A stretch of 64,000 nucleotides of DNA from Candidatus Zixiibacteriota bacterium (GCA_035574315.1 DATLYW010000029.1:62001-126000); one strand, 5' to 3'. Shown: positions 1-11,248, counted from the stretch's first letter. Numbers and translations: made by a program. The notes: a model not told the origin generated them from the sequence alone.

Positions 1-1803
1 GCGCAGCTGCGACTGACCTGGAGCGACAACTCGACCGACGAAAGCGGATTCTATATCGAGCGGCGACCCGGCAGCGGCAGCACCTACACGCAGATCGCGA
101 GCGTCGGCGCTGACGTCACATCCTACACCGATTCCAACTTACCCAACAGCACCACCTACTGCTACAGAGTTCGCGCCTACAACTCCGCCGGAACTTCCGG
201 TTACTCCAACGAGAGCTGCGCCACCACCGTGGCCGCAACTTTCGTGGTGAGCGTGAGCCGCTCGGGCACGGGCAGCGGCACCGTGACCAGTTCTCCGGCG
301 GGAATCGCCTGCGGTTCGGATTGCTCGGAAGCCTACACGAGCGGCACGACCGTCACGTTGACGCCCGTCGCTTCGGCGGGGTCGGTTTTCGCCGGCTGGA
401 GCGGCGCCGCCGATTGCAGCGACGGCGTGGTCACGGCCAACGCCGACATCGCCTGTACGGCCGTCTTCAATGCCGTCGTCGCTTCTTACACCTTGACCGC
501 AAGTGTCGTTAATCAAGTCACCTCCGCGGGCTCTTCCAGCGGCCGCGTGGTCAGCAGCCCCGCGGGCATCGACTGCGGCGCGGACTGCACCGAGAGCTAC
601 ACGTCCGGCACCGTCGTGGTGCTCACGCCGGTCGCGGGATCGAATTCCAAGTTCACCGGCTGGACCGGCGACGCCGACTGCGCCGACGGATCGGTCACGC
701 TCAACGGGAACAAGAGCTGCACGGCGAATTTCGCGCTGAACACGGTCACGCTCTCCGTCGCCAGGAACGGCAGCGGCACCGTGACCAGCACCCCTGCGGG
801 GATCGATTGCGGCGGCAGCTGCTCCTACGCCTTCGTCTCGGGCAGCGCCGTCACGCTGCGCGCCAGCGCCGCGACGGGCTTCGTCTTCGCCGGCTGGAGC
901 GGAGGGGGTTGCACCGGAACCGCGGACTGCACCATCACGCTGACCGCGAACACTACCGTTACGGCCAACTTCGCGGACGACCGGACCGACAAGATCGGCC
1001 TGTACCGCCCCGCCACTGGCGAATGGTTCCTCGATACCAACGGCAACGGCGTCTGGGACGGGTGCGGCGTGGATACCTGTCTGTCGTCGTTCAACGTCAA
1101 GGGAGCCGTTCCCGTGGTCGGGGACTGGGACGGATCCGGAGTAACTCGAGTCGGATTGTTCTTGACCGATTTATCCGGATTGTCCGACAGCACGACCACC
1201 TCGTCCCTGACCACTGCTTCGTGGTGGCGCCTCGACACCAACGGCAACGGCATCTGGGACGGGTGCGGCGTGGATACCTGCATCAACTCCTTCGGCGGCC
1301 CGACCGACCTTCCCGTGGTCGGAAAGTGGAGCGCGACGCGGCGGGATGCGATCGGGATTTTCCGGCCCTCGCGCGAACGCTGGTACCTGGACCTGAACGG
1401 CAACGGGATCCTGGACGGTTGCACCAGCGATGCCTGCTCGCGGTTCAGCTCCTATGCGGCCGGCGACCTGCCCGTCGCGGGAGACTGGCTCGGCTCGGGC
1501 AAGACCCAGCTCGGCTTTTACCGGCCCGCCACCGGCCAGTGGTTCCTCGATCGCAACGAGAACCGGACCTGGAACGGTTGCGGCAAGGACACCTGCATCT
1601 CGTCCTTCGGCTCGCCGGGCGACATTCCGGTGACCGGTGACTGGAACGGCACCGGCATCGCCAGGATCGGCGTCTTCCGCCCCTCCACCGGCGAATGGCT
1701 TCTGGATCGAAACGGCAACGGGGTATGGGACGGTTGCAGCCTCGATCTCTGCATCTCCGGCTTCGGTTCGTCCGGAGACATCCCGGTGGTCGGCAAATGG
1801 TAG
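1..1803 (+). CDS. Secreted repeat protein: FN3, three InlB-B-like repeats, five NGNG/WDGC repeats (5' end missing)
   Basis: The frame is open from the left edge, so the start and any signal peptide lie outside the window. The first ~75 residues look like a fibronectin type III domain (LTWSDNSTDESGF, then TYCYRVRAYNSAG). Three cysteine-containing repeats follow at about 241-470, 487-732 and 739-975, each with a PAGI.CG..C core and a F.GW.G motif, as in InlB B-type/bacterial repeat domains. From about 989 to the stop there are five ~50-residue units: IG.(F/Y)RP, LD.NGNG.WDGC, D.C, DIPV.GDW. The D.NGNG..D loop resembles a calcium loop, and the units resemble FG-GAP/VCBS-like propeller blades. 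An extracellular or surface adhesion role is inferred. A terminator follows directly. Confidence 0.75.
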   Translation, partial: AQLRLTWSDNSTDESGFYIERRPGSGSTYTQIASVGADVTSYTDSNLPNSTTYCYRVRAYNSAGTSGYSNESCATTVAATFVVSVSRSGTGSGTVTSSPAGIACGSDCSEAYTSGTTVTLTPVASAGSVFAGWSGAADCSDGVVTANADIACTAVFNAVVASYTLTASVVNQVTSAGSSSGRVVSSPAGIDCGADCTESYTSGTVVVLTPVAGSNSKFTGWTGDADCADGSVTLNGNKSCTANFALNTVTLSVARNGSGTVTSTPAGIDCGGSCSYAFVSGSAVTLRASAATGFVFAGWSGGGCTGTADCTITLTANTTVTANFADDRTDKIGLYRPATGEWFLDTNGNGVWDGCGVDTCLSSFNVKGAVPVVGDWDGSGVTRVGLFLTDLSGLSDSTTTSSLTTASWWRLDTNGNGIWDGCGVDTCINSFGGPTDLPVVGKWSATRRDAIGIFRPSRERWYLDLNGNGILDGCTSDACSRFSSYAAGDLPVAGDWLGSGKTQLGFYRPATGQWFLDRNENRTWNGCGKDTCISSFGSPGDIPVTGDWNGTGIARIGVFRPSTGEWLLDRNGNGVWDGCSLDLCISGFGSSGDIPVVGKW

Positions 1804-3760: not shown

Positions 3761-4210
3761 TCAGTGAAAAGAGGTCTTCCCTCCCGACCCCGCTTCCTCC
3801 GGATCGAGCAGGGGGCGCCGCCCGGCAAACCCGTCCTCGATCCGGTGCCAGTACGCGATGCTCGGCTCGCCGTACTGCCAGCAGAGAAAGACCACGTCGG
3901 TTCCCAGCATGCAGGGAAAATCCAGCAGGCCCTGCTCCACGCCTTTGCACAGGCAGCCGTAACTGTGAATCTCGTCCACGTATCCCTTGACCTGCCCGAT
4001 GATCGCCGCGATCTCCTGGTTTTCGCGCAGGCGGCTCATCAGGTTGGGCGATTCCGGGTCGATGGACTCCTCGCGGATCACCGTTTCGCTCTTCGCCCTC
4101 AAACGCCGGATCGTCTCCAGGATGCGCTCGATGATGGGGCGCAGCGTCGGCAGGAGCGCGTTGGCTTCGTCCACGGTGAAAAGCCTGGGGAAAGGCGACT
4201 GCGAATCCAT
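3761..4210 (-). CDS. DUF2203 family protein
   Basis: The product is 149 residues. It begins with the DUF2203 pattern RLFTVDEANALLPTL, continues as a helical region (RPIIERILETIRRLRAKSE), and ends with the conserved block GCLCKGVEQGLLDFPCMLG.DVVFLCWQYGE, so it matches the family throughout. No biochemical function is established for the family. ATG 4210 is preferred to a TTG at 4222. The gene lies 45 bp downstream of the receiver-LpxC gene in the same direction, so co-transcription is likely. Confidence 0.85.
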   Translation of the reverse strand: MDSQSPFPRLFTVDEANALLPTLRPIIERILETIRRLRAKSETVIREESIDPESPNLMSRLRENQEIAAIIGQVKGYVDEIHSYGCLCKGVEQGLLDFPCMLGTDVVFLCWQYGEPSIAYWHRIEDGFAGRRPLLDPEEAGSGGKTSFH

Positions 4211-4255
4211 GGAAGCGCTCAAAAAACCAGAAACGTTACGCGCGCGCTACGGAGG

Positions 4256-5551
4256 TCAAAGGCCCATCCCAGCCCGGATCTCCCTCAGCAGGCCGATGTT
4301 GTCGGCGTGCCCCGTCATGCACGCCTTGATCCTGCCGCGGATGGGTCGTCCCAACAGATAGAAGTCCCCGAGAATGTCCAGAATCTTGTGGCGGGCCAGC
4401 TCGTCGGCAAAGCGCAGGTCCGTGTTGAGGATCCGGTCGTCGCCGATGAGAATGCAGTTGTTGAGCTTGCCGCCGTTCACCAACCCCATCTGCTGGAGTT
4501 TCTCGATATCCCTGAGAAAGCCGAACGTGCGCGCGGGCGCGATCTCCCGCTTGAACGACTCGGGACCCGCGAAGGTGTAGGTGTGCTCCTGGACGCCCAC
4601 CGGCGCGGGATACCTGAGCGTGTAGGTCACCGACAGAACCTCGGCCGGCTCGATGCTGATCGTCTCTCCGCCTTCCTCGCCCACGCGAAAAGAGCGGTCG
4701 ACGATGATTTCCGGCGCGGGCTCGGGCTGCTCCTCGATGCCCGCTTCTTCGATCAGGTCGCAGAACTCCAGGGCCGATCCGTCCAGGATCGGAACCTCCC
4801 CCTGAACCTTGACCAGCAGGTTGGTGATACGGTAGCTGTGCAACGCCGCCAGGAAGTGCTCGATGGTGGCGATCGCCACCCCCTTGGAACGAAGCGAGGT
4901 GGCGTACCCCGTCGAGGCGACATAGTCGAGGTGTGCCGGTATCGTGACATCGCTGGAAAAGTCCGTGAAGAGAATGCCCGAGTTCGGCGGCAGCGGATGC
5001 AGGATCAGCCCGGTCTTGATGCCGGAATGGAGCCCCTGGCCGGAGATGACGACGTTCTTCCGGAGCGTCCTTTGCCGGGGCGCCGCGGCGCGTTCCGCGG
5101 CCGTCGCCGCTCGCCGCGTCCCTTTCGGCTTCGGGCGAGCCGGAGCCCTGCCTTTCACGGCCGCCCCCGAGGGCAGCTCGCCGAGGGCTCGGCGTACGGT
5201 GAGCAACAGACCGTCGAGCGACAGCGGCTTCTCGATGAAATCGAAGGCTCCGTATTTGGTCGCGGTCACGGCGGTGTGAATGTTGCCGTGTCCCGAGATC
5301 ATCACGACGTTGGTCGCGGGTTCCTTGCTCTTGATCTCCTGGAGCAAGCCGATGCCGTCGATCTGCGGCATCCAGATGTCGAGCAGGACCAGCCCGGGCT
5401 TTTCCCGCCGGATCAGGTCGAGCACGTGGGCCCCGTCCGCGGTATCGACCACGCGATAGCCCTCGTCGCTCAACACTTCCCGCACCGATTCGCGGACATT
5501 GTCCTCGTCGTCGACGACGAGGATCGTTTTCGGTTCCGCCGCTTCGCCCAT
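4256..5551 (-). CDS. lpxC: Receiver domain-LpxC fusion (UDP-3-O-acyl-GlcNAc deacetylase with N-terminal REC)
   Basis: The protein has 431 residues in two parts. Residues ~8-122 form a CheY-like receiver with the acidic pocket D14/D15, phospho-acceptor D58 (LVLLDIWMP), S86 in MISG and K108 in EKP. A 40-residue Ala/Arg/Pro linker follows. Residues ~160-431 are LpxC, the committed Zn deacetylase of lipid A synthesis. All three zinc ligands are present in family motifs: H232 (TIEHFLAAL), and H388 and D392 (RHKILDILGD). The catalytic H415 (TGHADN) is also intact. The start codon is ATG and there is no stop or frame change in the linker. The sensor kinase gene ends 10 bp upstream, so phosphorelay control of deacetylase activity or stability is a reasonable inference. 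Confidence 0.92.
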   Translation of the reverse strand: MGEAAEPKTILVVDDEDNVRESVREVLSDEGYRVVDTADGAHVLDLIRREKPGLVLLDIWMPQIDGIGLLQEIKSKEPATNVVMISGHGNIHTAVTATKYGAFDFIEKPLSLDGLLLTVRRALGELPSGAAVKGRAPARPKPKGTRRAATAAERAAAPRQRTLRKNVVISGQGLHSGIKTGLILHPLPPNSGILFTDFSSDVTIPAHLDYVASTGYATSLRSKGVAIATIEHFLAALHSYRITNLLVKVQGEVPILDGSALEFCDLIEEAGIEEQPEPAPEIIVDRSFRVGEEGGETISIEPAEVLSVTYTLRYPAPVGVQEHTYTFAGPESFKREIAPARTFGFLRDIEKLQQMGLVNGGKLNNCILIGDDRILNTDLRFADELARHKILDILGDFYLLGRPIRGRIKACMTGHADNIGLLREIRAGMGL

Positions 5552-5561
5552 CCTACCTCTC

Positions 5562-7793
5562 CTACGAATGTGCCGCCTTGCGCCCCGCCTCCAGCACGTC
5601 CTCCTGCCCGCGCACCGGGAACTCGACGGTGAAGGTCGTGCCGCGGGGCTCGTTCGGCCGCACCCGGATGTGGGCCCGGTGGTCCTCCACGATCTGGTTC
5701 ACGATAGTCAACCCGAGGCCGGTGCCCTGCTTCTTGGTGGAAAAGTACGGCTCGAAGATCCTCTCCCGGATCTCCGGCGTGAGGCCGCAGCCGTTGTCGG
5801 CCACCTCCAGCGAGACCACGCCGCGCGCCTGGTCGTGCTCGGTGGTGATGCGGATCTCGCCGTCGTCGCCGACCGCGGCCACGGCATTGTCGAGGAGGTT
5901 CAGCAGCAGGCGCTTGATCTGTTCCCGGTCCAGCTCCAGCAGCGGAATCGTCCCGCGGTTGAAATGAAACCGGATGCGGTGGTGAGCCTCCTTGAACAAA
6001 AAGAGCGCTTCCTGGACGGTCTCGTTCAGGTCGTGCCGCGCCAGCCGGGCTGCCGGCAGCCGCGCGAACTGGGAAAACTCGTTGACCAGCCGCTTGAGCT
6101 CGTCCACCTGTTGAATGATCGTCGACGTGCACTTGTCCAGCACCGCTCCGTTGCCTTCGAGAAGCCGGGCGTAGCGCTTCCGCAGCCGCTCGGCGGACAG
6201 CTGGATCGGGGTGAGAGGATTCTTTATCTCGTGGGCGATGCGGCGCGCGACCTCGCGCCAGGCCTCCATGCGCTGGACCTTCTGGATTTGCGTGATGTCC
6301 TCGAGGAAGATCATCACTCCCAGGCTCCGGCTTTCATCGTCTTTCAGCGTGGCGGCGGTCACCATCAGAGTCAAGATCCGGTCCGCCGAGGCCAGCTTGA
6401 TCTCGCGCTCCACGGCCTCCTGGTCCTTCACGCCCTCCACGATCTCTTGAAGAACCCGCAGCGGCTCCTCCCGGAACACCTCTTCGTAGCCTCTGTCCAG
6501 GGCCGCCCCGGCCTGGACCCCGAGCATCCGCTCGGCGCCCCGGTTCCAGGCCGTGATCTTGCCCGAGCGGTCGACCGAGATCACGCCGGCGGTGATGTTG
6601 CTGAGCAGCGTCTCCACGAACCGGCCCCGCCGCTCCAGCTCGGTCTTGACCTGACGGAGGTCCCGGGTCATCTGGTTGAACGAGTCGACGAGAATACCCA
6701 TCTCGTCGTCCCCCGGCGCCTCGATCTGATAGTCCCAGTTCCCCTGCGCCACTTCGTGAGTGCCCTCGGCGACCTTCTGGATCGGCACCGTGATCCCCTT
6801 GGCGAGATACAGCCCGCACCACGTCGCGACAAAGATGATGACGAGCGTGATCAACAGCAGCGTCATGATATAGCTGTTCTTGACAGGGGTCTTCAGAAAG
6901 GCCAGGTGCTTGTACTGCTCGTACGACCGGGAAATCTCCAGAGCCCGCTTGGTGATGCTTTTCGGCACGTAGTAGTCGACCACGACCACTCCGATGATCC
7001 GCCCCTCGCGGTCCGAAAAGGGGACCGCGCCCCGAATCACGTCCCCCTCGCCCAACGCCTGCGTGCGGGTCACCTCCAGACCGCGCAGGGCCCGCCCGAG
7101 AAATTCAGGCTCGGGCTTGATCGTCACGCCCGTGGGCACCTGGTCGTTGAAAGCGACGACCATCTGCCGGTGGTCCCGGGAGAAAAGCTCCACCGTGCCG
7201 AGATTGTATTCGCGCTGCTTGGCCCGCACGAATTCCTTGAGCTCGGATAGCCGTTCCGGCTCGTAAAGCCCCTGTTGGGTGATCTGGCGGCTCAGCTGCC
7301 GCGCGTAGAAAAGCGCGTTGTTCGCGGAGTTCTGATAATAGGTCTGGCCGATCTCCAGCGACCCCTGCAGCGCCCCCTCGACCTGCAGATCGAACCAGCG
7401 CTCGAGCGAGCGCGTGATGAACCCGCCGGCGATCACGAACAAAAGGAGCGTAGGAACGAGCGAAAGGCCGACGAAGGCGAGCACCAGCCGCACGCGCAGG
7501 CGCGAGCCCAGGATGCGCCGCTTGCGCTCGAAAACCAGTTTGACCAGGTTGCGGACGACGAGAAAAACCAGCAGCAGGAGCAGGATGATGTTGATGTTGA
7601 TGAGGAGGAAGAAGACGATGTTGTTGCCGAGGGAGGATTCCGGCGAGGCTTCCGGGATCTGGACCTCGAAAAAGGCGAAGGCCAGCACCATCAGGGTGGT
7701 GACGAGAATCACCAGTCCCTCGCGCTTGCGCCGCTTCGCTTCCTCGAGCTTGAGCGCCTCGGCGACGGGTGCGTCCGGATTGGAAACTTCCAT
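5562..7793 (-). CDS. NtrY-like transmembrane sensor histidine kinase
   Basis: The 743-residue product has the NtrY layout. Two or three N-terminal membrane helices (about 25-45, 57-85, 97-122) lead to a periplasmic region, then another helix near 300-325 and a HAMP segment (VAEGTHEVAQGNWDYQ). A PAS-like domain follows (SVDRSGKITAWNRGAERML). The kinase core has the H-box RRIAHEIKNPLTPIQL, N-box LLNLLDNAVAAV, G1 DNGCGLTPEIR and G2 GTGLGLTIV. NtrY usually partners NtrX, but here the next gene supplies only a receiver domain, fused to LpxC. An envelope-sensing role is inferred from that linkage. Confidence 0.9.
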   Translation of the reverse strand: MEVSNPDAPVAEALKLEEAKRRKREGLVILVTTLMVLAFAFFEVQIPEASPESSLGNNIVFFLLININIILLLLLVFLVVRNLVKLVFERKRRILGSRLRVRLVLAFVGLSLVPTLLLFVIAGGFITRSLERWFDLQVEGALQGSLEIGQTYYQNSANNALFYARQLSRQITQQGLYEPERLSELKEFVRAKQREYNLGTVELFSRDHRQMVVAFNDQVPTGVTIKPEPEFLGRALRGLEVTRTQALGEGDVIRGAVPFSDREGRIIGVVVVDYYVPKSITKRALEISRSYEQYKHLAFLKTPVKNSYIMTLLLITLVIIFVATWCGLYLAKGITVPIQKVAEGTHEVAQGNWDYQIEAPGDDEMGILVDSFNQMTRDLRQVKTELERRGRFVETLLSNITAGVISVDRSGKITAWNRGAERMLGVQAGAALDRGYEEVFREEPLRVLQEIVEGVKDQEAVEREIKLASADRILTLMVTAATLKDDESRSLGVMIFLEDITQIQKVQRMEAWREVARRIAHEIKNPLTPIQLSAERLRKRYARLLEGNGAVLDKCTSTIIQQVDELKRLVNEFSQFARLPAARLARHDLNETVQEALFLFKEAHHRIRFHFNRGTIPLLELDREQIKRLLLNLLDNAVAAVGDDGEIRITTEHDQARGVVSLEVADNGCGLTPEIRERIFEPYFSTKKQGTGLGLTIVNQIVEDHRAHIRVRPNEPRGTTFTVEFPVRGQEDVLEAGRKAAHS

Positions 7794-7827: not shown

Positions 7828-8040
7828 CTACCTTCTCAAGAAATAAAGGACAACCGTCAAGACCACGCTGATCAGGATACAGGTGGTGATCGGAAAGTAA
7901 AAGCTGAAGCGCTCGCGCTCGATGTAGATGTCCCCGGGAAGATGACCGAGCCAGGGGATCTTGACTCCGAGCGACAGGATGGCGCCGATGACCACCAGCA
8001 AAACTCCGATCGTGATCAGAAACTTGCCGAAGTCGGCCAT
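7828..8040 (-). CDS. DUF2905 family small membrane protein
   Basis: This 70-residue protein has two membrane helices (about 7-27 and 49-67) flanking the family signature WLGHLPGDIYIERE. Its length and motif fit DUF2905, which is very often found beside ruvB or ruvA in bacteria. Its function is unknown. It lies 34 bp upstream of the sensor kinase and 75 bp downstream of ruvB, all co-directional. Confidence 0.85.
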   Translation of the reverse strand: MADFGKFLITIGVLLVVIGAILSLGVKIPWLGHLPGDIYIERERFSFYFPITTCILISVVLTVVLYFLRR

Positions 8041-8115: not shown

Positions 8116-9147
8116 TCAGAAGAGCGTGGGCTGGTTTTTCGCGGCGGCCTTTGCCTCCTTTCGCTTGCCGAAATGGTCGTAGGCCAGAGACGTCGCCACG
8201 CGGCCGCGCGGGGTTCTCTGCAAAAAGCCCGCCTGGATCAGATAGGGCTCGTAGACGTCCTCGATCGTGTCCTTCTCCTCCCCGATCGCGGCGGCCAGCG
8301 TCTCCACCCCTACCGGCCCGCCCGAGAACTTCTCGATCACGGCCAGCAGGAGCATCTTGTCCATCTTGTCGAGCCCCAGCGGGTCCACCTCCAGAAGGCG
8401 CAGCGCGTCTTCGGTCACCGACTTGCTGATTGTACCATTCGCCCTGACCTGCGCGAAGTCCCTCACCCGGCGCAAAAGCCGGTTGGCGATGCGAGGCGTT
8501 CCCCGCGACCGCCGCGCGATCTCGGCGATTCCGGCTTCCTCGCCGGATACGCCCAGGATCGCGGCGGAGCGTTTGAGAATCTGCGTGAGCGCCTCCGGGG
8601 AATAGAAGTCGAGACGGAGAATCGCTCCGAAGCGGTCCCGCAGGGGCGAGGTCAGCAGACCCGAACGGGTGGTGGCGCCGATCAGCGTGAACCGCTTCAG
8701 CGGCAGCTTCATCGAGCGGGCGGACGGCCCCTGTCCAATCATGATGTCGATCTGGTAATCCTCCATCGCGGGATACAGCAGCTCCTCGACCACATGGTTG
8801 AGGCGGTGGATCTCGTCGATGAACAGAATGTCGCCTTCATCGAGATTGGTGAGCAGGGCGGCCAGGTCTCCCGGGCGCTCGATCACCGGGCCCGAGGTCG
8901 CCTTGATATTGACCCCCATCTCCCGCGATATGATGTAGGCGAGGGAGGTCTTGCCCAGACCCGGCGGGCCGTGGAACAGGAGATGGTCGAGCACGTCGTT
9001 GCGCGCGCGGGCCGCCGCGATCGCCACCTTCAGGTTCTCCTTGACCTGGTCCTGGCCGATATATTCGTCAAAGCCCCGCGGCCGGAGGCTGGCTTCGTAA
9101 TTGAGATCCTCTTCGGTCGGCTTCGGCGAGATCGAACGCGGCTCCAC
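8116..9147 (-). CDS. ruvB: Holliday junction branch migration ATPase RuvB
   Basis: RuvB is the AAA+ motor of the RuvAB complex. The 343-residue product has Walker [12 protein letters not shown], Walker [10 protein letters not shown], sensor 1 GATTRSGLL, arginine-finger region SPLRDRFG and the C-terminal winged-helix end ([17 protein letters not shown]). The N-terminus [12 protein letters not shown] is typical. The reading begins at a GTG. It follows ruvA by 28 bp. Confidence 0.97.
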
Positions 9148-9175
9148 GGCTCCTGTCCCGGCGTAAAGTTTTCGC

Positions 9176-9769
9176 TCAGCGGCTCATGCGCCGCAGCACT
9201 TCCTTGATCACGTCTTCCAGCGTCTGCCTGCCCGAGTCGATCGCTTCCCGCACGTTCTTTTCGACTTCGCTTTTCTTGTAGCCCAGGTTGACCAGCGCCG
9301 ACACCGCGTCCTGCGCCAGCCGCGAGCCCGAAGCGGCCTGCCCCGCCGCGGGCGACTCGGCCAGAAACGTGGCGAAACGATCGCGCAGCTCGACGATCAT
9401 CCGCTCCGCGAGCTTCTTTCCCACCCCGGGAATCGAGAGCAGCCGCAGCTGATCGCCTTCCCTGACCGCCCGCACCAGCTCGTCGGCCGGAATCCCCGAC
9501 AGGATGTTGATCGCGAGCCTCGGCCCGATCCCGGCCACCTCGTTGAGCATCAGAAACACCTGCTTCTCGACCGGCTCCTGGAAGCCGAACAGCTGGAGCG
9601 CGTCCTCCCGCAGGTGCGTGTGGACGTAGAAACGCACGGTCGCGCCCACCTCGGGAAGCCCGTAAAACACGTTGAGCGGGATGAAAATCTGGTAGCCGAC
9701 TCCGCCGACATCGACGATCACCTCGCCGGGAATCTTGTGCGCCAGGGTACCGTTGATTTGCGCGATCAC
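9176..9769 (-). CDS. ruvA: Holliday junction DNA helicase subunit RuvA
   Basis: The 197-residue product contains the RuvA N-terminal OB fold ([11 protein letters not shown]), two helix-hairpin-helix motifs ([12 protein letters not shown] and [15 protein letters not shown]) and the C-terminal domain III that contacts RuvB ([18 protein letters not shown]). The start is a GTG at 9769, where VIAQINGTL aligns with the family's usual first residues. The frame is open further upstream, but that sequence overlaps ruvC and has no RuvA character. A GGAG lies 13 nt before the GTG. Confidence 0.95.
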
Positions 9770-9803
9770 GGCAGTTTCGAAGCTCCGAGCGCTCCTTTCT
9801 ACC

Positions 9804-10382
9804 CTAGAACGGCGAGTTGCGCCGGCGGGAAAACGGCGCCGGGCGGCCCACAGCGGCCGGCAGCCGGCTGTGAAACGCGCTGCGGTTGGCGTGGCAGATG
9901 GCGGCGGCGAGCGCGTCCGAGGCATCCTCCGCCATCGTGCCGCGAAGACCGAGCAGGGAGCAGACCATCATCTGCACCTGCTCTTTCGTCGCGCGGCCGT
10001 ATCCGACCACCGCCGCCTTGATCTCCGCCGCCGCGTATTCGTAGACGGAGGCGCCGTGGTGCGCCGCGGCCAGCAGCGCCACGCCGCGCGCCTGTCCGAG
10101 CTTCAAAGCGCTCTGCGCGTTTCGCGCGAAAAACACCCGCTCGAGACTTACCACGGCGGGTCGATAGGCCTCGAAGACCTCCTGGATTCCGCGATAGATC
10201 CGGCCGAGGCGGGCAGCCGGGCCGACCGCTCCATCGGAGGTGATCACTCCGTGGGCGACGTGAACGGCGGAGCTCCCCGCGGCTTCCACCACGCCCCACC
10301 CGGTAACGATCGAGCCCGGGTCGATGCCGAGGATGACCGTGGCAACGGGGTTGCGGGCGACTCGCCGCGGCGCCAAGTTCAT
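9804..10382 (-). CDS. ruvC: Crossover junction endodeoxyribonuclease RuvC
   Basis: RuvC resolves Holliday junctions. The 192-residue product shows the RNase H-fold acidic residues in their usual settings: ILGIDPGSIVTGWG near the N-terminus, LERVFFARNAQSALKLGQARG with the Glu, and DASDALAAAICHA with the Asp near the end. Its ATG at 10382 overlaps the yebC stop by one base (TGATG), supporting translational coupling and this start. The frame is open much further upstream, but that part runs out of frame through yebC. ruvC, ruvA and ruvB are contiguous here. Confidence 0.95.
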   Translation of the reverse strand: MNLAPRRVARNPVATVILGIDPGSIVTGWGVVEAAGSSAVHVAHGVITSDGAVGPAARLGRIYRGIQEVFEAYRPAVVSLERVFFARNAQSALKLGQARGVALLAAAHHGASVYEYAAAEIKAAVVGYGRATKEQVQMMVCSLLGLRGTMAEDASDALAAAICHANRSAFHSRLPAAVGRPAPFSRRRNSPF

Positions 10383-11128
10383 CAGCTCGCTTTTTCGAGG
10401 TATTCGCTGGGTATGTCGAAATTCGCCGCCACGCTCTGGACGTCGTCGTGGTCTTCGAGCTCTTCGGTGAGCTTGAGAATCGATTCCGCGTGCTTCTCGT
10501 CCACCGTCACCACGTTTTTGGGCACCATCGTGACCTGCGCCGTGACCACCGGGATCTTCGCTCGCTCCAGGCTTTCCTTGACCTTCTCGAAGTCCTCGGG
10601 AGCGGTGACGATCTCGAAGACGCCTTCTTCTTCCTTGACGTCCTCGGCGCCGGCATCGAGGACGACCCCCATCAACTGCTCTTCGTCCACCCGGCCCTTG
10701 TCGACCGTGATGACCCCTTTCTTGTCGAACATCCACGAGACGCAGCCGGTTTCGCCGAGATTGCCCCCGTACTTCGCGAACAGCCGCCGGAGCTCCGAGA
10801 CCGTGCGGTTCTTGTTGTCGGTGAGAACCTGAGCCAGGATCGCCACGCCTCCGGGGCCGTAGCCCTCGTACTGCACTTCCTCGTAGGCGACGCCCTCCAG
10901 CTCCCCGGTGCCCTTCTTGATGGCGCGCTCGATGTTCTCGCTGGGCATGCTGTTGGCCCGCGCCGCCATCACCGCGGTCCTGAGCCTCGGATTTGCGCTG
11001 ATGTCTCCCCCGCCCATCCGCGCCGCAACGGTGATCTCCTTGATCAGCTTGGTGAAAAGCTTGCCTTTCCTTGCGTCCTTGGCAGCCTTCTTGTGCTTGA
11101 TCGTGCTCCACTTGGAATGGCCGGACAT
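10382..11128 (-). CDS. yebC: YebC/PmpR family protein (TACO1-like)
   Basis: The 248-residue product starts [14 protein letters not shown], the invariant YebC N-terminus, and continues with [18 protein letters not shown] and [10 protein letters not shown]-like motifs (here [10 protein letters not shown]). YebC proteins are described both as transcriptional regulators and as translation factors that help ribosomes through proline stretches. The ATG at 11128 has an AAGGAG upstream, and a longer in-frame start at 11149 is not needed. It heads the yebC-ruvC-ruvA-ruvB series, an arrangement common in many phyla. Confidence 0.95.
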
Positions 11129-11248
11129 GACACGTGCTCCTTGCGGCAAGGTTAACCTAGCACAAAGAAAATTCTACGTAAACGGTTGTTCACGCCGACA
11201 CGACCGCCCGCCACGGCGCGCGGACCGGGAGAAATTCACCTGCGCGTC

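Follow-up and report, generated by a model that had tools for sequence, protein, structure and literature searches.

The window analysed here is a stretch of 64,000 nucleotides of DNA from a Candidatus Zixiibacteriota bacterium (GCA_035574315.1, DATLYW010000029.1:62001-126000), and positions are counted from its first letter. Its minus strand carries a gene for an NtrY-family histidine kinase followed by a gene in which a receiver domain is fused to the deacetylase LpxC. The features are as follows.

5562..7793, minus strand: NtrY-family histidine kinase, 743 aa, H521 in the motif HEIKN; domains PF19312 (NtrY_N), HAMP, PAS, HisKA and HATPase_c
5552..5561, minus strand: 10-nt gap, with a Shine-Dalgarno-like sequence overlapping the kinase stop codon
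4256..5551, minus strand: receiver-LpxC fusion gene, 431 aa, stop included; sole lpxC of the genome
5195..5524, minus strand: NtrX-type receiver domain, residues 10-119; PF00072 (Response_reg), E=1.8e-30
5378..5380, minus strand: codon of D58, the predicted phospho-acceptor, invariant in 123/123 complete receivers
5078..5179, minus strand: low-complexity linker, about residues 125-158, delimited by pLDDT, variable length and relaxed dN/dS
4259..5077, minus strand: LpxC deacetylase domain, residues 159-431; TIGR00325, 254.5 bits (cut-off 187.25)
3761..4222, minus strand: downstream DUF2203 gene (PF09969), for which no role in the mechanism is claimed

The fusion gene and its neighbours

The original prediction, made from this DNA alone, described a single 431-codon frame joining a complete receiver, a low-complexity linker and an LpxC with all of its zinc ligands and the catalytic histidine, and each of these elements was recovered. 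The open reading frame (4256-5551, minus strand) is uninterrupted, and neither a frameshift nor a stop codon, which the prediction had named as evidence against itself, occurs in the linker (about residues 125-158) in this genome's frame. The receiver has the acidic pair (D14 and D15), the phospho-acceptor aspartate (D58), the Thr/Ser position (S86) and the lysine (K108) of its family, and these residues, like E231/H232, H388, D392 and H415 of LpxC, are invariant in an alignment of 17 sequences of diverse homologues. The LpxC domain is full-length, exceeds the curated cut-off and retains both its zinc ligands and its catalytic residues, and Pfam places it at residues 160-425 (PF03331, E=4.5e-83). 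Since the fusion protein is the sole LpxC in the 4.26-Mb assembly, it is probably active as a deacetylase. The top-scoring response-regulator model on the receiver part is the NCBIfam model for NtrX (NF051870). The protein is not classed as NtrX, as it has the NtrX-type receiver and lacks, by Pfam, both the AAA+ and the Fis-type helix-turn-helix (HTH) domain. A sequencing or assembly artefact was rejected because every member of the family with a complete locus is fused (65–76% identity), as are proteins in many further families; one fused protein lies on an assembled chromosome and another is found in a named Desulfopila strain.

The kinase stop codon, overlapped by a GGAG-like sequence, lies 10 nt from the ATG of the fusion gene, as predicted. 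The kinase scores 43 bits with PF19312 (cut-off 23.2), has the domain content of NtrY, and is the only protein with an NtrY_N domain in the assembly. Upstream of its gene are DUF2905, ruvB, ruvA, ruvC and yebC (7828-8040 and 8116-11149), and the order yebC-ruvCAB-ntrY-REC-lpxC recurs in another family of the class (locus L091, 1-5995). Open frames of 1007-1423 aa in two genomes (G080 and G116) had suggested that kinase, receiver and LpxC can form one chain, which was ruled out when the kinase was found to lie in a different frame that ends 21 nt before the receiver. A large ORF elsewhere in the window (229-1803) contains Gly/Thr-rich repeats and repeats of the type FLDTNGNGVWDGC and probably encodes a surface or secreted protein.

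Predicted structure and selection on the receiver

The AlphaFold model of the fusion protein has a mean pLDDT of 90 and a pTM of 0.84, with pLDDT below 50 only at linker residues 129-138. Its structural matches include Aquifex and Pseudomonas LpxC for the enzyme part (Z about 40) and Brucella NtrX, 4d6x, for the receiver (Z of 22, 51% identity); LpxC fills most rows of that list and receivers form a minority. By sequence, the closest solved receivers are 4d6x and then the nitrogen assimilation regulator 5m7n. Both alignment and model indicate that the protein terminates right behind the last LpxC helix and has no C-terminal tail.

Across the fusions, D14, D15 and D58 are kept in 123/123 complete receivers, K108 in 124/124 and S or T at position 86 in all, and no degenerate receiver was found among the 124 proteins apart from one truncated sequence. 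Median pairwise dN/dS is lowest in the receiver (0.046), a little higher in LpxC (0.068) and far higher in the linker (0.43), which ranges from 24 to 65 aa among homologues and is relaxed in dN/dS. Hence, by this measure, purifying selection on the receiver is as strong as that on LpxC. The conservation of the receiver and its low dN/dS argue strongly against reading the domain as a relic.

Distribution and graded architectures of receiver-LpxC fusions

A search for the receiver-LpxC architecture across genomes, proposed in the original prediction as a check, returned 124 distinct proteins among the fetched loci, comprising 101 REC-LpxC proteins and 23 with an additional AAA+ domain. About 25 families of the window's phylum contain them, and named records extend the fusion to Nitrospinota, Thermodesulfovibrionia (Nitrospirota), Acidobacteriota, Desulfomonile and Desulfopila, those from Nitrospinota, Nitrospirota and Acidobacteriota being derived from metagenome-assembled genomes (MAGs). 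With 124 fusions in many families, a local one-off event is ruled out. The fused protein is the sole LpxC in 8 of 11 named genomes. In a tree of LpxC domains all fused sequences form one clade, apart from stand-alone LpxC (SH-aLRT 100), in which the one entry annotated as unfused comes from a locus cut by a contig end. A receiver and a catalytic domain have thus been kept in one chain across lineages.

There are two main architectures, REC-LpxC and REC-AAA(-HTH)-LpxC, the latter being NtrX fused to LpxC, and by family the forms are graded: REC-AAA-HTH-LpxC in some, REC-AAA-LpxC without the HTH in others and REC-LpxC in most. The GAFTGA motif forms the AAA+ loop that contacts sigma54. It is missing from the AAA+ domain in 23/23 of the AAA-containing fusions, and the remaining 101 of the 124 lack both the AAA+ and the DNA-binding domain. 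Loss of GAFTGA was rejected as a mark of fusion in itself, as eight unfused NtrX proteins showed the exact motif in four cases, GSFTGA in one and degenerate forms in three. Since four of the eight lack the exact motif, sigma54 contact has decayed outside the fused lineages as well. The unfused NtrX proteins encoded in lpxC-ntrY-ntrX clusters of delta-type lineages (loci L137, L144 and L164) have a degenerate motif, and sigma54 activation may already have been lost in them.

Individual loci show further variation. One genome (G416, family f76) has two different receiver-LpxC genes (L075 and L076). In another (G128, locus L060, 5983-8148) an apparent frameshift separates the first 91 aa of a REC-AAA-HTH-LpxC gene, the beginning of the receiver, from the remainder; the gene is intact in a related locus (L061). 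A second, stand-alone LpxC on a 3.1-kb contig of genome G012 (L027) falls together with a Nitrospirota MAG and probably stems from contamination of the assembly.

Loss of free NtrX and retention of NtrY

The original prediction noted no NtrX-like effector beside the kinase and proposed a search for ntrX elsewhere in the genome, an intact copy being an outcome that would speak for another partner of the kinase. None is present genome-wide: with a profile built from eight NtrX proteins, whose left-out members score 631-732 bits, no protein of the window's genome exceeds 498 bits, compared with 631-762 bits for true NtrX. Among unfused genomes of the phylum 28/30 encode exactly one NtrX (655-762 bits), whereas only 2/52 fused genomes (G308 and G426) encode one, at 631-642 bits when left out, both proteins belonging to the profile's training set. 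In the other 50 fused genomes no score exceeds 547 bits, which is what generic NtrC-family regulators reach. The difference gives a Fisher p of 2.6e-17, a naive value that ignores phylogeny and serves as a guide only, since related genomes are not independent. In a tree of receivers the fused domains group with NtrX receivers, apart from the NtrC-family receivers of the window's genome (SH-aLRT 97), and as judged from these sequences the fused receiver is of NtrX ancestry. NtrX is often encoded beside lpxC in unfused relatives, which include Desulfonema, Desulfobacteraceae and Rokubacteria with clustered lpxC, DUF4390, ntrY and ntrX genes. DUF4390 corresponds to the PlrP family, suggested by genetic evidence to be a third component of some NtrYX systems (PMC13001219).

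The question raised in the original prediction of whether the neighbour of the fusion is always an NtrY-like kinase is answered in the negative. Flanking sequence was sufficient to judge adjacency for 120 fused proteins, and NtrY is encoded just upstream in only 54 of them, leaving 66 without an adjacent kinase gene. Genomes that lack the adjacent gene usually encode one NtrY at another site. A protein with NtrY_N was found in 25 of 31 fused genomes tested with PF19312 (some of these being the adjacent cases) and not in the other six, a result to be read with the limited sensitivity of the model, which also misses 8 of 30 unfused genomes. Twenty distant NtrY loci were read, and 18 have no NtrX gene alongside; the two exceptions, each with a normal NtrY-NtrX pair, are in the two fused genomes that keep NtrX. 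In two genomes (G071, locus L242, and G275, locus L246) the old lpxC-(DUF4390)-ntrY cluster persists without ntrX and the fused LpxC is encoded elsewhere. A regulator-less NtrY, combined with an NtrX receiver that is now on LpxC, is the pattern that direct control of LpxC by the kinase would predict.

Proposed mechanism and alternatives

We propose, as a fairly probable reading of these comparisons, that the NtrX receiver was moved onto LpxC and that phosphorylation by NtrY directly sets LpxC output. NtrY would most likely phosphorylate D58 of the fused receiver through H521, as suggested by gene adjacency and the orphan pattern, and as a HEIKN-type kinase would probably remove the phosphate too. 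The phosphorylation state of the receiver would then set LpxC output directly on the enzyme, with a predicted effect on deacetylation, most plausibly by altering receiver self-association or the packing of receiver and LpxC across the flexible linker, and such a change would affect access to the catalytic site or its activity. A rigid allosteric path across the linker is unlikely because the linker is disordered, variable and fast-evolving, and dimerisation, occlusion or recruitment is favoured. Through these steps a transcriptional link between NtrYX and lpxC would have been turned into direct control that bypasses transcription. By analogy, inhibition of LpxC upon phosphorylation is the slight favourite, since NtrYX lowers lpxC expression in alphaproteobacteria (PMC7240162, PMC12444477).

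The original prediction offered two readings, a kinase that controls LpxC directly and a passive relic of adjacent ntrX and lpxC genes. The comparative evidence favours control, given the invariant pocket, the purifying selection, the loss of NtrX in 50/52 fused compared with 2/30 unfused genomes, and the orphan NtrY. Fusion by rearrangement is easily imagined where lpxC, ntrY and ntrX are clustered, as in unfused relatives, but an unused receiver would decay, whereas this one has a dN/dS of 0.046 and a pocket that is invariant across families and phyla, and a relic with no regulatory function is extremely unlikely. The points that weigh against direct control are the 66 fusions without an adjacent kinase, the six of 31 genomes in which NtrY_N was not seen and the NtrY-NtrX pair kept in two genomes. 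A receiver that serves constitutively for structure or dimerisation, whatever its phosphorylation, is very improbable: receivers often dimerise and AlphaFold is confident for both domains, but such a module would need neither an invariant D14, D15, D58, S/T86 and K108 nor the loss of NtrX with NtrY retained. We regard as improbable a receiver that acts back on the kinase, as a phosphate sink or by sequestration, or that still regulates genes, with LpxC as a passive carrier. The AAA+ and HTH domains kept in some fusions would fit such a role, but GAFTGA is lost from every AAA-containing fusion, 101 of 124 lack any AAA+ or DNA-binding domain, and NtrY stands without NtrX alongside at 18 of 20 distant loci.

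Receivers of the RssB and CpdR types act on protein turnover or location. The main rival to direct catalytic control is that the receiver, once phosphorylated by NtrY, acts on LpxC turnover or localisation and not on catalysis, taking over the role that FtsH-LapB has in E. coli. Regulation in E. coli bears on the amount of LpxC (PMC12444477), the window's LpxC ends after its last helix with no C-terminal tail, a flexible linker suits recruitment and no LapB-type protein scores above the family cut-off in this genome, the last being a weak negative. However, no link to an adaptor or protease was found, and the LapB model is centred on E. coli, with only one control genome passing its cut-off; we consider control of turnover or location doubtful. 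Direct phospho-control of the enzyme is retained as the preferred reading, and there is a reasonable likelihood that one fusion event welded NtrX to LpxC and that stepwise shedding of GAFTGA, the HTH and the AAA+ domain led to a dedicated system, a direct phospho-switch with the commitment step of lipid A as its sole output.

Relation to known systems

The system resembles NtrY-NtrX in its NtrY_N/HAMP/PAS/HisKA kinase and in its receiver, for which profile, tree and solved structures all place NtrX closest; it differs in that the regulator has an enzyme at its C-terminal end and neither an AAA+ nor an HTH domain. An influence of NtrYX on lpxC and LPS is already known from Rhodobacter, where lpxC transcript and LPS go up when NtrYX is lost, and from Caulobacter, where it represses lpxC (PMC7240162, PMC12444477). 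This known link runs through transcription and seems to be indirect in R. sphaeroides (PMC7240162). Known regulation of LpxC, by FtsH-LapB-YejM or, in Pseudomonas, by direct binding of MurA, which activates the enzyme (PMC12444477), shares with the fusion the enzyme, its catalytic residues and control of the commitment step after translation, the last being predicted here. Its points of difference are a covalent phospho-receiver, the missing C-terminal tail and the lack, in this genome, of a LapB above the cut-off of the E. coli-centred model. For the response regulator DVU2934 of Desulfovibrio vulgaris, lpxC is the one mapped target, and the operon of the orthologous regulator in S. fumaroxidans has lpxC immediately upstream (PMC3333781), but DVU2934 is a stand-alone transcription factor that works at the lpxC promoter and not a fusion. 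Together with the NtrYX and MurA cases, it is a precedent that fits the proposed control of LpxC.

The LpxC-FabZ fusion (NF009667) also joins LpxC to another domain in one chain, but its partner is a C-terminal enzyme of lipid synthesis, whereas the partner here is an N-terminal signalling domain, and the window protein scores only 210 with that model (cut-off 465). In proteins of the CheB, PleD and RpfG types a receiver precedes a catalytic domain and phosphorylation sets the output of the enzyme. The window protein has the same domain order, and by analogy phospho-control would be expected, but the outputs of those proteins serve signalling, whereas LpxC belongs to biosynthesis and its reaction commits flux to lipid A. 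No description of a receiver-LpxC protein was found in open-licence full text. Two surveys of signalling proteins there leave LpxC out, and a 2025 review of LpxC and lipid A regulation contains neither a receiver nor a response regulator nor a fusion; the architecture could appear in censuses published in subscription journals. Within the open-licence literature, what is new is the lipid A commitment enzyme as the output of a response regulator, enzyme outputs as such being already known.

LpxC commits the cell to making lipid A and is an antibiotic target, and to our knowledge its regulation is largely unknown outside a few proteobacteria. On the proposed reading, the graded fusions form a clear record of a transcription factor becoming a direct regulator of an enzyme. 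Nature appears to have made a kinase-controlled LpxC, and the fusion is a testable case of an envelope signal setting LPS synthesis and might open a way to control LpxC allosterically.
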